Shown here piece by piece: positions 1 to 62,725 of a stretch of 64,000 bases of DNA; within the stretch, counting starts at the first letter, position 1, and the number at the start of each line of letters is the position of its first letter. The translations under genes and the position numbers were made by a program. Below the pieces are notes generated by a model. The model did no database searches, was not told the DNA's origin, and worked only from the letters and a program-made list of their open reading frames with translations. The stretch is from Capitulum mitella (lineage: Eukaryota > Arthropoda > Thecostraca > Pollicipedomorpha > Pollicipedidae), in assembly GCA_030062745.1 (NCBI GenBank), contig CP099843.1, forward strand, positions 23,490,122 to 23,554,121, given 5' to 3'.

Positions 1-180
1 TCCTCCAGACGTACCCTGGTCTTCCTCAGACGTGCCCCGGTCCCCGTCAGGCGTACCCCGGCCTCCGCCGGACGTACCCCGGCCTCCGTCAGACGTACCC
101 CGGTCTGTCATATGTACCCCGGCCTCCGTCAGACGTACCCTGGTCCCCGTCAGACGTACCCTGGTCTCCGTCAGACGTAC
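1..180. repeat. 21-bp minisatellite at the ORP exon donor
   Basis: About nine units of 20-21 bp (anchors near 7, 28, 49, 70, 91, 111, 131, 152 and 173). Read on the minus strand each unit contains a potential 5' splice site of the form CAGG/GTACGT. The array begins inside the last bases of the ORP exon at 181-363 and runs to the window edge. The minus frame stays open through the first four or so heptads (GDQGTSD type). Confidence 0.93.
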
Positions 181-363
181 CCTGGTCTCCCGCCTCCGGC
201 TCGGACTCGGCCCAGGACCGGCCGCCGTCGGCGTTCATGGAGCGCTTTAGCAGCGACGAGCAGGCCATGCTCAGCTCCAGCGCGTCCATCCAGCACTTGC
301 CCGAACTCTGCGTCGGCGCCCGGAAGATGAGGTGCGTCGTCGGCAGCGGCTGCACCACGGCGC
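181..363 (-). CDS. OSBPL8: ORP exon: C-terminal half of PH domain
   Basis: Acceptor ATCGCCAG/GC at 364-370; the split Gly codon matches the phase-1 donor of the previous exon. Encodes GAVVQPLPTTHLIFRAP and KCWMDALELSMACSSLLKR, then an acidic tail. The donor placed at 177-180 (CAGG/GTACGT) is the first of several equivalent donors in the 21-bp repeat, so the true 3' limit may vary by multiples of seven codons. Confidence 0.9.
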
Positions 364-3300
364 CTGGCGATGACGTCACCGCGCGTCAGCTGACCGCCCG
401 GCGGCGGCCATCTCCCGTGGAGAGCGGGAAGCAGGCGGACTGCCAGCGCACACGCCTCCGGGGAGCGGGCGGCCAGCTGGCTAATCATAGTCTCGCAACA
501 GGCGTTTTGCTCTCGCTGAACGGGGGTTAATTTCACTCCGACGGTTTCTAAGCAGCGCAACACGTCGGCATGAAACATGCACGATCTCCCAACTGAAGCC
601 CACCCGGTGACCGGTCCTGTCGCGCCGGCCCGGGCAGCCGGCGCGACACCCACCGATGCTCTCGCCGTCCGGGCCCTTGGTGGACCAGATGCTCTGCTCC
701 AGCGGGTGGTACAGCTTGAAGCAGAAGCCATCCTTCTTGCTGGGCCGCTCGATCAGGTGACAGCTGGCCAGCAGGACCGTGCCCACCCAGTGGCTCTTCT
801 GCGGACAGTCACCCACGTCACCCGAGCCTCGACACACAAGGATTGCGTGCACTGCCCGCGTTGTTCTCGAAACAGGCCATGCTGCAATGGAAGTGTATGC
901 TGACCACGCGACAGGCTGGCGTTTAATTACACCTCGGTTTACAGTCAGCACAGCGTCCAACAATCGCTCAGATGCCTGACGCCACACCGTCCCGTCCAGC
1001 GTGGCCGCACCACCAGCGTCCGACACGTAGAACAGTGACGTCACGTGGCCAAGCGGATGGCTGAGAAGTCTGGTCCGACCGTACGGCGATCTGACGCCGT
1101 AATGAGCGATCATTCGGAGGCTGGGTTAACTGGCCATGCGGTCTGGTCGTGGTCGCCGGTTGTATGGTCACCTGCTGGTCTTCCCACGCTGTCCTGTGTA
1201 TCTGCGCGGGCAGGAGCTAATGGCGGACATCTGTGTAAGCAGCGTGATCACCAGTCGTGTCTCAGGGTCCACCCGTGTAACCCCGACCAGGCCGTGTAAC
1301 CCCGACCAGGCGAGTCATTCGTGTTGGCAGCGCGTGGCCACCAGAAGAGCTTCAGAGCCGGCCGCCGTCAGCATAGGCCGAAGTAGTTCCGTCAGTTCGT
1401 GCCTCTGTTTTCCATTACGGACCGTCTCCGTGCCTTTCAACGGCCAGAGAAGCCAGCCGCGTCACGGCGTCCCGCACCGTCTGTCACGCAGAGGGATCAA
1501 CGGGCACGGGAACGCCCGGCAGGACGGCGTCTGCACCAGGCAGCTCCGGCCGGACAGCCAGGCTCGGGACAACCAGACCTACGGCGTTCGTCACCGAAAC
1601 ACCACATACGGCGCGAAGCCGCCGCACTGCGTTGGGACCGGCGGGGTGTTTTTTTTACACGTCACGAGTGTTTCACAAGTCCTCAGGTGGCGCGCTATTA
1701 CTGACGCACACATCTGGTTCCATCCACGGCTTCGCGGTCGTCACACGACTTCGTTTCGGATGTGCGCTTGAGAGAGCGTCGTTGGCGTGGGATATTCAAT
1801 CATGTTCGCTCGACAGCGCGTCCAGAGTTATTGCCCCGCCGATCGGAGCGGATCCAACCCCCACCCTAATCAGCAGCCCGTTCGTTATCAACGGCCCCAC
1901 AGCCCACAACAGAGCCCAGGCTGTCACACGTCAGGCCTCCGAACGCCGTGGTCCTCCTCACCCTCCCGCGCGCAGAGGCAACCCGCCTCACAGCGCTATC
2001 CGAACTGTGTCCCACGCGACGCCGGCAAGCTTCTCACGTTTGGGCCGCACAAGGTCACGGCTGAGGACGGTCGGCAGGCGGCGCCACGCAGGAGCCGGCG
2101 CCGCGGAGCCGCAGCAACTCATCACAGCGCCGAGCGCCGTCGCGGGGCCGCGCCGGCCGGGCCGCCGCCGCCGCCGCCGCCGGATCCGGGTTGGGTTCGT
2201 CATCCGGCGTGCCGCGGTCGATTCCCCAGACCCCCACACACGGCCCATCGATCTGGGGTAGCGCTCCGGTCCCGGCCGACCGGACGGGGGGGGGGGTCCC
2301 GGTCCGGGTCGGAGAGCGGGCCCCGACCGGCGTTCACGACTGCTGACTGGGACGAGACGCCCGCCCCGGATCCATACGACAGTGCTGACCGCCGCTGAAT
2401 TGTGAATCGCGTTACTGGGAAAGCTTCGGCCCCTCGAGCGTCAATGAGAACACTGACTGCGTTGCATTTGTGACCGTCGCCCACCCACCGCCTTGCATTT
2501 GTCGCACTAGGTCTTTTCCGCCATACACAACAAATTGGCCAGTAAGCTGTGGGAATACACCACAAAGCGGCAAGTGAGATGCCGGCGCAATATGTCCGGT
2601 ACACTCCAGTATGTCAACGTCAATCTGTCTCGGTCTAAGGCCGCCCTACGTGCATTATGATGCATAACACCTACCCGCGTAACTACACACCAACTGCTCT
2701 GACCGAACAGGTACAAGGAAACATGCTGTCCAAGAGAACAATAAGCTGTGAGGTTTGGCTCACTCCGACAACATTTATCACGAGACAAAATCGTTTGCTA
2801 CCCAGCAGTGAGTAATCACATTTGTTGTCTATGAGGTGCCAAATCCACACGCAAAGCTGAAGAGTTCTGCGCCAAGCCGCACACTATCCGCGTTGTGCCC
2901 TTCTTGGTCTCAAACATCCACACGGCAATGATTCCCCACCAGACCGGCGGCTCTCGACCTTCCTCCCACTGGACAGCCGTCTCTAAGCGGCTCATCAGAC
3001 CGCATCTGTCCCAGTTTCCACACCGTGACCGCGCCGGTACAGCCCCTCAGCCTCCCGCGACGGGACAGAGACGTCACGAGCGCCCTACGTCCCACCACCT
3101 CCCAGCACCGTTCACCCCTCTCTGACGCCCCTCACTCCCGCACCCCCGCCGACTGCCCTCCCCCAGACGCTCACCTTGGCCTTCTCGCTCTTGTAGAGCA
3201 CCAGCAGGCCGGGCTTGAGCACGCACCAGAGCTTGGTCCAGCCCTTGAGCGAGCCGCGCACCTTGAGCCAGTCGGCGCGCACCAGCACAGCCGGGTCGCG

Positions 3301-3402
3301 CACCGTGCTCAGCAGCTCGTCGGCGGCGCGCCGCTTCTCGTGCCGGTATCGCCGCCGCTGGTCCTTGTACGACTCCTTGCGCGTCAGCGGCAGCGGCGCC
3401 GC
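181..3402 (-). CDS. OSBPL8: ORP5/ORP8-type oxysterol-binding-protein-related protein, PH-domain part (partial, 3 exons)
   Basis: Known family role: ER-anchored lipid-transfer proteins at ER-plasma membrane contacts that exchange PI4P for phosphatidylserine; the PH domain binds plasma-membrane phosphoinositides. Seen here: exons 3175-3402, 654-798 and 181-363 join in phase (0, 1, then 1 out) into about 185 residues. They begin with the basic region (LTRKESYKDQRRRYRHEKRR), followed by DWLKVRGSLKGWTKLWCVLK (PH start), IERPSKKDGFCFKLYHPLEQ and GKCWMDALELSMACSSLLKR (PH C-terminal helix with the conserved Trp). The order and spacing match ORP8/ORP5. The ORD lipid-binding domain and the tail anchor must lie left of position 1. 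The 5' exons are not certain; candidates are listed separately. I cannot separate ORP5 from ORP8, since many invertebrates have one gene for both. Confidence 0.93.
364..653 (-). other. ORP intron
   Basis: Intron between two PH-domain exons, with donor GTGGGT at 648-653 and acceptor CAG at 364-366 (minus strand). Nothing else is recognised in it. Confidence 0.8.
654..798 (-). CDS. OSBPL8: ORP exon: central PH domain
   Basis: The acceptor TGTCCGCAG precedes AAG AGC CAC TGG and is phase 0. Encodes KSHWVGTVLLASCHLIERPS, KKDGFCFKLYHPLEQSIW and KGPDGESIG, the most conserved part of the ORP5/8 PH domain. The donor ATCG/GTGGGT is phase 1. Its 145 nt fit both neighbours exactly. Confidence 0.95.
799..3174 (-). 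other. ORP intron, no gene seen
   Basis: Intron of about 2.4 kb. It has a very GC-rich stretch at about 2010-2370 with a (CCG)n run at 2161-2180 and a G run at 2286-2296, then more AT-rich DNA. Open frames across the GC-rich part exist on both strands and show no recognisable protein, so I do not call them genes. Confidence 0.6.
3175..3402 (-). CDS. OSBPL8: ORP exon: basic region and PH start
   Basis: 228 nt, phase 0 to 0, 76 residues. The acceptor CGCCTCTGCCGGGCAG precedes GCG GCG CCG CTG; the donor is GCCAAG/GTGAGC. Encodes LTRKESYKDQRRRYRHEKRR, AADELLSTVRDPAVLVRADW, LKVRGSLKGWTKLWCVLKPG and LLVLYKSEKAK. The frame remains open upstream through the adjacent 21-bp repeats, so a longer exon that includes ASALTPA heptads cannot be excluded. 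Confidence 0.94.
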
Positions 3403-3410
3403 CTGCCCGG

Positions 3411-3515
3411 CAGAGGCGGTCGGCGTTAGGACAGAGGCGACCGGCGTCAGGGCAAAGGCGGCCGGCGTTAGGGCAGAGGCGGCCGGCGTCAGGGCAGAGG
3501 CGGCCGGCGCTGGGG
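3411..3515. repeat. 21-bp minisatellite overlapping an ORP splice acceptor
   Basis: Five 21-bp units starting at 3411, 3432, 3453, 3474 and 3495. On the minus strand the unit nearest the exon supplies the pyrimidine-rich part (CGCCTCTG) of the acceptor for exon 3175-3402. In the exon's frame the units read as ASALTPA-type heptads without stops, so they could be translated if an upstream acceptor were used. Confidence 0.92.
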
Positions 3516-4877
3516 CCGCGGCCATCGGTGACGCTCGGCGGGCCGCGGAGCCCGGGTCCGGCCGTCGTCGGGACGGCCACGCCGGGTCTGGGGAGGTCGC
3601 CGCGGCGGACGACGCGGACACGACACGGCCACTGGTCAATGTGGACGGGGCAACGGATAACACGGCGGCGATGCTCGGGCGCCATTACCAAGAGCGGTCC
3701 CGTCACTTGGTAATGCATGAAGCACTCGGACGCTGTGGTGATTAGCGTCGCGGATACCGCATTCCAGGGTCGACGCTCTTTTTAGGGCACGACGCCTACG
3801 TGTCGCTGCCGTCCTTACACTTGTCACCGAATTAATGAGCTGCATGTGGGCAAGAGCACGTTTCGCCGACCTAGGGAATTTGCGCAATCGCCATCATCAA
3901 AAACACGCCACGACCACAATGGCGTCGTCCATTTATTGAGCAATGGTTGCCAGGACCCTCGGCCAATGAAATGCTGTATTACGGCGAACAGGGATATCCC
4001 GGATCCCTATCCAATGAAGTACTCTGCTAGCATCGCCGGGGGGGCACAGTATCCGGCATGTATGCCTGTATTCTAACAAATGTATGACTGCGAATGCATT
4101 AAGTATAATTTATGTATAATTAATTACACAATTATAATGTATACTTTATTTAATTATAATGTATACGTTGACTTTGCGAAACCTGTGTTACACAGACATG
4201 CATTTCCACCACGGGACCTTTTTCTCGATATTCGAGATCGAGAAATCCTGATCCCCGCCGACATCGGTACAGATATCGGCACGGACAAATGAAGCAATAC
4301 CGCAGCTCCAAAACAACTGGCCCGATGGGGGACCAGTCTGCAGGCGTGACGTCACCATGGCTCCAGATGTCTCCTATCGACCGGCGGCCAAATAGCAGCA
4401 TTATACCGCCCATTGAGCCCGACCCTCGTGCCCACAAAACAGCAGGCCGTCCTCGGCCGCTATATCTCGGTGGCTGCGGTTCCATATGCCGTCGCTCGGC
4501 ACGCCTCCGGTCGAAGTCAAACGCGGAAAGCCCGTCATAATCAGTCGGCACTCCAGCGGGCCTGATTAATTGATCAAACGTGCGCGCCGCAAGCCGCTGA
4601 AGCAGGCACGAAGGACGAATAAAAGGACGGATCGACAGCGTGGCTACGTGTTCCCAAGTATGCCGCGGAATTTCACAACTAACAAAATCATCAATATGTC
4701 ACAAGGATATATTAACCCGCGCAGTGGAAAGAGGTTTCGCGCTAACGCGCACTGGAAGCGTGGGGATTTAAACGGGCCCCCCATCTCGGAAACGGGAAGA
4801 GCTAGCGACATGAAAATTTGTGGACAGGGTAGGGCTATAACGATTTACATTGTGTGCAATTTTCATAACCCTAGATG
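3516..4877. other. Presumed ORP intron, nothing recognised
   Basis: Begins GC-rich and becomes AT-rich from about 4080. No exon, RNA gene or complete mobile element is recognised here. Confidence 0.5.
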
Positions 4878-6021
4878 AATATCTTCAAGGTCAAATGGGG
4901 TCGAAAACGTCAACTTTGGACACTTTCTCGGCCCGTGCAGGCCATTCCGTGCAATTTTTTCGAACGAAACGAGAAAAGGGCATTTGTTTGAGTGTTAAAA
5001 CGTTGCATATGACAATGTCCATTCATTTGACGTCTTGACTGAGGATTCTGGGTCGAGGTCATGTCAGGTCATTAACCTATGCTGTCATTTCTCATCTTTT
5101 GCAGATTAGGTTTCGAACAACACGAGATAGCTTGAGTGTAAATGAGGGAGCTATACGCATCTTTTGGCGTATTCTCAGTGAAGGCAGCCAATATCGGTAC
5201 ATTTGGTCACTTCCGGCGTTTATATCTAGGTATGTGTGTATATGTATATATGTATATGCATGTGAGTATCAGTGTGCCAAACGTGTTTGTAGTCTTTGTT
5301 TTTGAATGCATATTTCATACAAATCGACAAATTACAGAGCAAATCTAGGCCAGGTCACAAAATGGCTGTCCCTGACCTTTAAAGACCGTGACCTGAAATG
5401 ACCCTGGTATATATAAGGATATCCATGTGCGCATACATGTTTTTATTGGGGTCTTTGAATGCATATTTCATACAAATCGACATGTCGCAAACCAAATCTG
5501 GACCAAGCCACAAGATATTTGACCTTGGTCTTTGATGACCTTGACCTCCACTGACCGTAGTATATGTAAGCGTATTAGTGAGCGCACAAGCGTTTTTATT
5601 GGGGTCTTTGGATGTACATTTCATACAAACCGACATGTTGTAAAGCAAATATGGATCAGGTCACAGGCTGGTCGACCTTGACCTTTGATGACCTTTACCC
5701 TGGTTTTGGTCTTAGTACATCCATCATTTATGCCCCAATGACGTCGCATGATTATGTTCAAACGGTAATCTTAACAACGCTGTTTTTCACAAAGTTCCGA
5801 TTTGTCAACGACAACCGTCGTTTTCGTTGTTTGCTTGACTTCAAATGCTTGAAACTTCAAACATTTTGGGGTAATTTTCGATTTTTCTGCGTCAATCGAC
5901 GAGTTATTCAATTGCCATAAATGTCGCAAAGTAGCAGCAGCCAGCTGCGATCCGTTCTCGAGATATTCGGGAAAAACAGATGGGAGGAGCACAAAAAGAC
6001 CCCCTTCCAATGCGCGTATTA
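4878..6021. repeat. Dispersed 1.14-kb repeat R1, copy 1
   Basis: Matches 29026-30168 along its whole length at the same size (about 1,144 bp). Shared landmarks: a start at ATCTTCAAGG, then CAACTTTGGACAC, three internal tandem units, GAGATATT near the end, and a final TGCGCGTRTTAA-like segment. It has no long open frame. It is probably a non-autonomous mobile element; the class is unknown. Confidence 0.85.
5301..5759. repeat. Three 153-bp tandem units inside R1 copy 1
   Basis: Units start at 5301, 5454 and 5607, each opening with TTTGAATGCATATTTCATAC or a close variant. They contain repeated TGACCTTTGATGACCTTGAC-like text, that is, clusters of AGGTCA half-sites on the minus strand. Confidence 0.88.
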
Positions 6022-8224: not shown

Positions 8225-8606
8225 AATGACTGAACTTGTGACGAGTCCGTAGCTCACCGTGTAGAAAGATCTGTATCCGACCTGTGACGGATCAGTACCT
8301 ACAACCCACCGTGCCACGGGCCGGTATCTGAACATGTGACGGTTCGGTACGTGACCATGTGACGGGTCGGTACCTCACCGTGTGACGGTGTGGTATCTGA
8401 CCGTGTGATGGACCGCTTTCTGACCATGTGACGGGTCGTTATCTGGCCGCGTCACAGCACCCGACCGTGTGACGGCTAAGTACCCGACCCTGTGACGGGC
8501 CAATACCTCGCCGTGTGGTGTACCTGACCGTGTGACGGGTCGGCGCCTGACCGCGTGACGAGTCTCCGTGGCCGTGTGACGGATCTGTGCGAGTGACCGT
8601 GCGATG
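8225..8606. repeat. Degenerate ~22-bp minisatellite
   Basis: Roughly 16 diverged units of the form GACCGTGTGACGGGTCGGTACCT. It generates open frames with HTVRY-like repeats on the minus strand; these are not called as genes. Confidence 0.85.
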
Positions 8607-28793: not shown

Positions 28794-29025
28794 ACTGTAT
28801 GTAGGGATGCACCGGATCGGGATTTTTGTGATCCGGCTGGATACCGGATATGCCGGATCGGGGTGCCGGATATCCGGCCGGATATCCGGCCGGATACCGG
28901 ATATTACGTTTACATGTTTTTATTTACTATTTCTATTGAAATAATGAAATCGAGAAGGCTGAATAGAAAAGAAAAATATGAGAAACTGAAAAAATTAGTA
29001 AAAAATGCCCACAGCTTGTAAGTCG

Positions 29026-30931: not shown

Positions 30932-31560
30932 ATGCTGGTGCACGTACCCAGGCGCGTGCGTGTTGCCGACAGATGAGAGGTGATGGAGATGATCCATTAA
31001 GCAAAAACTGACCGCAGCAGTTATGACTACATTTCTGCAAAGTTTAATGTTCATACAGTAATAAATGTGCTTACGGTATGACTTTAAATACTGTCTCATT
31101 TTCCAGTGCTCACAATTTATATTTTTCCTTAATACATTTGTGTCAGAATTTGAGAAAGACAAGAAATATTTCGAAAAAAGGAAGATAATAAATCATAAGA
31201 TGAGCTACTGACCGCATGCTGGCTATTGTTTCACAGTTTTGAACTTGAGTCCCGTTCTTGCAAAGATATGTCCGAACCCTCCCGGACCAACACAGAAAAG
31301 AATTGGTCCCAAGGTCTCCAGACCGACTTGGAACTGCCAGTTACATCGACAATCTAACACAACAAGCCACGCTTCCCCTGAAACGGTTTTGGACGCAGAC
31401 ATTAGAGCACCGTCTTGATTGTACACTGGGAGGTTAAATATCCGGCAGTGTCCGGCCGGATCACAAAAATATCCGGCCGGATACCGGATACCGGATAATC
31501 TCTAATATCCGGCCGGATATCCGGCCGGACCGGATATCCGGTGCATCCTCTAACTGTATG

Positions 31561-37982: not shown

Positions 37983-38640
37983 CCGAAGAGAAGTCGATTA
38001 GAGCATGTTTTATTTTGATCGAAGCAATCGATGTCGGTTTTCAGCCATTGCAGCAGACTGCGAGTATTGTTCCAAACACCAGCTACTTGACTTGAGGCCA
38101 CACGTTTCTGGTTTCTAAATAAATACCCCGAGAGAAATCGACTGGTGCATGTTTCACTGCGATCGGAGCAGAGAAAGTTGGTTTTTAACTGTCTCAGCAC
38201 ACAGCAAATACTGTTTCAAGTACCACCTACCTGACCTGAATACCTGAAGCCACAAATTTCTTGGCCGTAGGTAAATACTTTGCAAGAAGTCGGTTGCTGC
38301 ATGTTTAATTTCCATCGGAGTAATGGAAGATGTTTTTAACCAGTGCAGTAAACTGTAAGGACTTTTTCAAGTACCAAGTACATAACCTGAGGTCTCAAGC
38401 TTTTCACGCTGAAGTAAACAGCCCGAGAGACGTCGACTGGTGCGTGCGTCAGTTCGATCGGAGCTGTGGACGTTGGTTTTTAACCACTGTATCAGACTGC
38501 AAGCACTATTTCAAGTACCAAGTACCTGACATGAGGTCATAAGTTCCCTATGCTCACGTAAATAGCCCAAGAGAAGTCGAATGGTACATATTCCATTTCG
38601 ATCGGAGCAGTGGCAGTTACTTTTTAGCCATTGCAGAAAA
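37983..38640. repeat. ~144-bp satellite, about 4.5 units
   Basis: Unit anchors (AAGTCGACTGGTGCATG-like) at 37991, 38135, 38287, 38430 and 38574. Shared text includes TCGATCGGAGCAGTGGA, TTGGTTTTTAACCATTGCAG and CAAGTACCAAGTACCTGACC. No coding capacity. Confidence 0.92.
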
Positions 38641-62304: not shown

Positions 62305-62725
62305 TTTTGACATCACAGTTCTTGTGCACGAAACTGCAGGAAATATGAACAAAAACTGGTGCTGTGGATAATGTGGCGTCTGACGAAGTGCTGTCTTAGA
62401 CGTATGTAGAAATTACGCAATTTAATCCCCGCTCTCCACAGCGGCTAATAACTGTTGAGGCGCAAATAGCTGTCAGCTTGAATTCAAAATTGCATTTAAA
62501 GACAAACATGTGAAAGTGTGTTCACAATTCTAGTTAACGAAACTGCAAGAAATATTGGTAAAAATTTGCCCTGTGGATTATGTTGTGTTTGACGAAGTGC
62601 GATTATACAATTATGTACATATTACACAATTTAACCCCGCTCTCTACAACGGCTAATAACTGTTAAGGCGCAAATGGCTGTCAGCTGGAATTAAAAACTG
62701 TAGTTCTGGAGAAACATGTGAAATA
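62305..62725. repeat. 209-bp direct tandem duplication
   Basis: GACGAAGTGC at 62382 and 62591; shared GGCTAATAACTGTTRAGGCG and CTGTCAGCTKGAATT text. Confidence 0.9.

Follow-up and report, generated by a model that had tools for sequence, protein, structure and literature searches.

A 21-bp minisatellite with repeated donor-like splice sites at an exon-intron junction of an ORP8-type gene in Capitulum mitella

Results

The ORP8-type gene and its visible exons

A stretch of 64,000 nt from Capitulum mitella (GenBank assembly GCA_030062745.1, contig CP099843.1, positions 23,490,122 to 23,554,121 of the forward strand), called the window in the following, opens on its minus strand within an ORP8-type gene, and the last of the three exons visible in it ends in a 21-bp minisatellite with nine donor-like splice sites in view. 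The exons 3525..3175, 798..654 and 363..181 join to a single open frame (Table 1). Position 363 is the exact first base of the third exon; an acceptor of the form ...CCAG stands directly before it, and the joined reading across this junction is ESIG-AVVQPLPTTHLIFRAPTQSSGKCWMDALELS. The exon takes over one carried base from the preceding exon and leaves in phase 1.

The encoded PH domain matches the ORP8 PH structures in the PDB (1v88, E 4.3e-57; 5u77/5u78, E 5e-57), and the next best matches, the PH domains of GRP1/cytohesin, reach only 5.3e-05. The Pfam PH match of the encoded protein has an E-value of 8.7e-12. Judged from its PH domain alone, the gene is predicted to encode a lipid-transfer protein of the ORP5/8 type (oxysterol-binding-protein-related protein), with an OSBP domain and a C-terminal membrane anchor expected beyond window position 1. 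The same gene contains a second 21-bp array at 3409-3516 (5.1 copies), which lies within the first exon seen and would encode in-frame heptads of the type ASALTPA after the candidate start codon and upstream of the PH domain.

The 21-bp array across the exon-intron junction

Tandem Repeats Finder (TRF) called the minisatellite at 6-190 with a period of 21, 8.9 copies and 83% matches. It is located at the end of the third exon, on the coding strand, and extends across the exon-intron junction; the window start falls inside unit 9, and the far end of the array lies beyond window position 1. With up to three mismatches, the 21-mer occurs five times in the window, always inside the array, and not once in 100 shuffles, so that its clustering is more than chance. 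A dispersed repeat family was rejected for the 64,000-nt window on the same grounds. The 10-mer CAGGGTACGT is less special, with 12 matches in the window at up to one mismatch, six of them outside the array, against 3.11 expected. Strong RNA structure over the donors could likewise be discarded (z = 0.00), since folding was as good or better in 97 of 200 shuffles.

The 10 bases with which the exon ends before donor 1 recur identically at the end of unit 1, and the exact runs common to the exon end and units 2-8 measure 7, 2, 2, 2, 2, 2 and 8 bases. Read in the PH frame, the first three units give DQGTSDG. A preliminary description of this DNA, which had placed a 21-bp array at the end of the PH-domain exon of an ORP gene, was thus right about both the array and the gene. 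Its statement that the last bases of the exon form the first array unit holds for the 10 bases common with unit 1.

Donor-like sites, phases and the break in frame

The sequence CAGG|GTACGT is present exactly at four of the nine donor-like sites (1, 2, 3 and 9), GTACGT at six and the dinucleotide GT at eight; the deviant sites are site 8 with GC, site 4 with GTACAT and site 7 with GTACGC. Donors 1-3 agree in all nine bases. The spacings between successive sites are 21, 21, 21, 19, 21, 21, 21 and 21 bp. Donors 1-4 all leave the exon in phase 1 with an open frame and would add 0, 7, 14 and 21 residues, respectively. Donor 5 leaves in phase 2, and in the PH frame it is followed by a TGA beyond which sites 6-9 are located. 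Four sites (1-4) are therefore in one phase and open, and the other five (5-9) are out of phase with them because unit 4 is only 19 bp long; the exon that follows is not part of the window. Coding read-through of the whole array is ruled out in this assembly by the TGA after donor 5.

According to the preliminary description, CAGG/GTACGT recurs in constant phase in almost all units, and choice among these donors would add heptads without shifting the frame. The former went too far, with exact copies at 4/9 sites and a common phase at sites 1-4 only; the latter applies to donors 1-4 (0-3 heptads) and fails for sites 5-9. Out-of-phase units, which the description itself had named as evidence against its proposal in other individuals, are already present in this assembly as sites 5-9.

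Table 1. Features of the ORP8-type gene and of its 21-bp array, in window coordinates
Feature	Coordinates	Strand	Description
First ORP8-like exon seen	3175..3525	-	From candidate ATG at 3525 (putative start); donor AAG|GTGAGC
Second ORP8-like exon seen	654..798	-	145 nt; donor TCG|GTGGGT
Third ORP8-like exon seen	181..363	-	183 nt with donor 1; holds the end of the PH domain
21-bp minisatellite	1..190	- (coding strand)	Nine donor-like sites in view; array cut by the window edge
Donor 1	175..184	-	CAGG|GTACGT; G(+1) at 180; probably the main donor
Donor 2	154..163	-	CAGG|GTACGT; G(+1) at 159; +21 nt, phase unchanged, +7 aa
Donor 3	133..142	-	CAGG|GTACGT; G(+1) at 138; +42 nt, phase unchanged, +14 aa
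Donor 4	112..121	-	CGGG|GTACAT; G(+1) at 117; +63 nt, phase unchanged, +21 aa; weak
Unit 4	99..117	-	19 bp, 2 bp short; phase broken
Donor-like sites 5-9	9..102	-	G(+1) at 98, 77, 56, 35 and 14; other phase

Strength of the donor-like sites

Donor strength was assessed with a donor matrix that is not fitted to Capitulum mitella, as well as by the energy of the duplex with the 5′ end of U1. AGG|GTACGT scores 2.8, a value matched or exceeded by 2.2% of the 7704 GTs of the window, and the two other visible donors of the gene score 7.07 and 2.11. The corresponding U1 energies are -5.8 kcal/mol for AGG|GTACGT and -9.6 and -9.4 for the two other donors; in a random half of the window's GTs, 7.1% pair with U1 at least as well as AGG|GTACGT. 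By these measures the array sites would be plausible and moderate, not strong, donors. Alternative donors upstream of donor 1 were rejected, since the best of the seven other GTs that follow the exon start reaches -2.88 against 2.8 for donor 1, which is the top-scoring GT from the exon start up to the array. Sites 5, 6 and 9 have matrix scores of 1.93, 1.93 and 2.8 and U1 energies of -6.1, -6.1 and -5.8.

Expectation for a junction-spanning repeat

Donor copies are an unavoidable result of any tandem repeat lying across an exon-intron junction. Minisatellites are common in the window, covering 2.9% of it, or 0.7% if only those with at least five copies are counted. Among the 40 TRF rows with a period of 10-60, some of which overlap, the period is divisible by 3 in 15, including the junction array, and over the first three units two of the three frames are open. 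Since donor copying is automatic, such periods are not rare and two of the three frames are open, the pattern alone gives no argument for a tunable linker. The motif GGT[AG]NGT is found in the consensus of only one of the 40 rows, namely the junction array, which counts in its favour.

Other features of the window

Three neighbouring arrays with a TRF period of 23 are located at 8316-8582, and a 153-bp tandem repeat of 2.6 copies with stretches resembling TGACCTTTGATGACCTTGACC at 5301-5699. Short repeats of palindromes of the type CCGGATATCCGG occur in two places (28865-28900 and 31505-31541), and two longer tandem repeats (144 bp and 209 bp) at 38310-38640 and 62313-62723, respectively. The window contains 315 open reading frames (ORFs) of at least 70 aa, and 20 long ones outside the first 8 kb were scanned for families; their sole match, Tail_completion_gp17 (E 0.014), is below the curated cut-off and was taken as chance. 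When about the first 14.7 kb were read in two of the three frames of the minus strand, with stops written as X, no Pfam family was found at E 0.01; all three PH exons lie in those frames, and the scan is therefore not sensitive enough to count as proof of absence.

Discussion

How the array may have arisen and how it may be spliced

We propose, in a reading that we hold to be evenly balanced between right and wrong, that the array is a junction minisatellite: most of the product would come from donor 1, some in-frame variants may arise by leakage to donors 2-4, and sites 5-9 would be unproductive. It probably began as a tandem duplication of a segment with roughly 10 bases of exon and 11 of intron, as suggested mainly by the 10 bases common to the exon end and unit 1, and such a duplication would have copied the 5′ splice site into each unit. 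The spliceosome would be expected at donor 1 in most transcripts, with some leakage to donors 2-4 that would place 7, 14 or 21 residues of the DQGTSDG type behind the PH domain. Transcripts spliced at sites 5-9 would be frame-shifted or run into a stop and should be non-functional or degraded. All donor use in this scheme is a prediction from sequence. A selected function of the array is unnecessary for it. The junction minisatellite finds support in the overlap of array and exon end, the ORP8 identity of the PH domain, donor 1 as the best-scoring GT, the identity of donors 1-3, the 19-bp unit 4, the TGA after donor 5, the array RNA, whose folding is not unusual, and the many minisatellites of the window.

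Several points weigh against this proposal. Were the next exon, beyond the window, to continue the protein in phase 2, only donor 5 would be productive. The run of 10 bases with the exon end is found in unit 1 only and shrinks to two in units 3-7, so the birth at the junction would rest on few bases, and the same picture would result from an array that just happens to overlap the exon by ten bases. Donor 1 is probably not strong, because it pairs with U1 more weakly than the gene's two other visible donors. Finally, SRSF1 activates intron-proximal and hnRNP A1 intron-distal 5′ sites, as stated in the introduction of PMC5585400; SRSF1 would shift use to the later, unproductive sites, and with hnRNP A1 acting as well the outcome could go either way.

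Alternatively, the minisatellite may be passive and intronic, with donor 1 alone ever used and the copies acting as silent decoys, an explanation we regard as reasonable but less likely. The later units have decayed, as seen from the GC of site 8 and from unit 4 with its GTACAT and its missing 2 bp, and nothing in the sequence demands more than one donor; on the other hand, donors 1-3 are identical over nine bases, and their discrimination in favour of donor 1 would need context effects. The array might also act as a splicing brake, the later donors competing with the first ones, giving frame-shifted or stop-containing transcripts and thereby lowering the protein level. Sites 5, 6 and 9 retain GTACGT, have matrix scores below (5 and 6) or equal to (9) that of donor 1 and U1 energies at least as favourable, and are unproductive provided that donors 1-4 have the right phase; even so, we consider such a brake unlikely.

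A regulated form of the tunable linker of the preliminary description, in which the donor chosen would determine how long the stretch behind the PH domain is and thereby how far the protein reaches at membrane contacts, appears more doubtful still. Donors 1-4 are in phase and open, and units 1 and 2 differ only by GGA/GGG, a change that is synonymous when they are read as DQGTSDG, but five of the nine sites are out of phase and 21 residues at most could be added. Moreover, selection in human coding sequences is reported to disfavour tandem splice events that keep the frame and span 3, 6 or 9 nt (PMC2279118), a range outside which 21 nt falls. Least probable of all, and very improbable in itself, is the idea that array length and donor choice together set the length of the stretch behind the ORP8 PH domain (0-3 extra heptads) as well as the proportion of transcripts that are unproductive, by which a fast-mutating minisatellite would become a heritable dial on a lipid transporter of endoplasmic reticulum contact sites.

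Comparison with known systems

Human ORP5 and ORP8, of the same protein family, have natural splice variants (ORP8L/ORP8S and ORP5A/ORP5B), which according to PMC5624964 are distinguished by an N-terminal stretch of 42 residues or by truncation of the PH domain rather than by repeats behind it. Close tandem donors such as GYNGYN are likewise adjacent 5′ splice sites able to make small in-frame changes (excerpts of PMC1779574 and PMC2878309); unlike the array sites, which are 19-21 nt apart, they lie 2-12 nt apart (PMC2878309), and neither abstract presents them as minisatellite repeats. Among the matches listed from the open-licence literature, none combines ORP with repeat terms, which is no proof of absence from print.

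That a minisatellite can supply multiple splice donors has already been published for human IFI6 (6-16), where the alternative donors reportedly keep the frame. There, two downstream repeat units act as splice donor sites and give rise to three mRNA species, as described in an excerpt of PMC4526556. At both loci a tandem array lies where an exon meets an intron, and its units carry donor-like sites, in the present case with GT at 8/9 and GTACGT at 6/9 sites over 6-190. Gene and unit are different, however, the transcripts of IFI6 have been reported whereas the ORP8-type array is known here from its sequence, and the phase of the latter breaks after four sites. As known now, the array is a tidy example of a junction-spanning repeat that makes donor decoys and is limited by a visible frame break. 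Should several of its donors be used, it would be a further gene in which a minisatellite copies a splice site and thereby couples repeat-length mutation to protein length.
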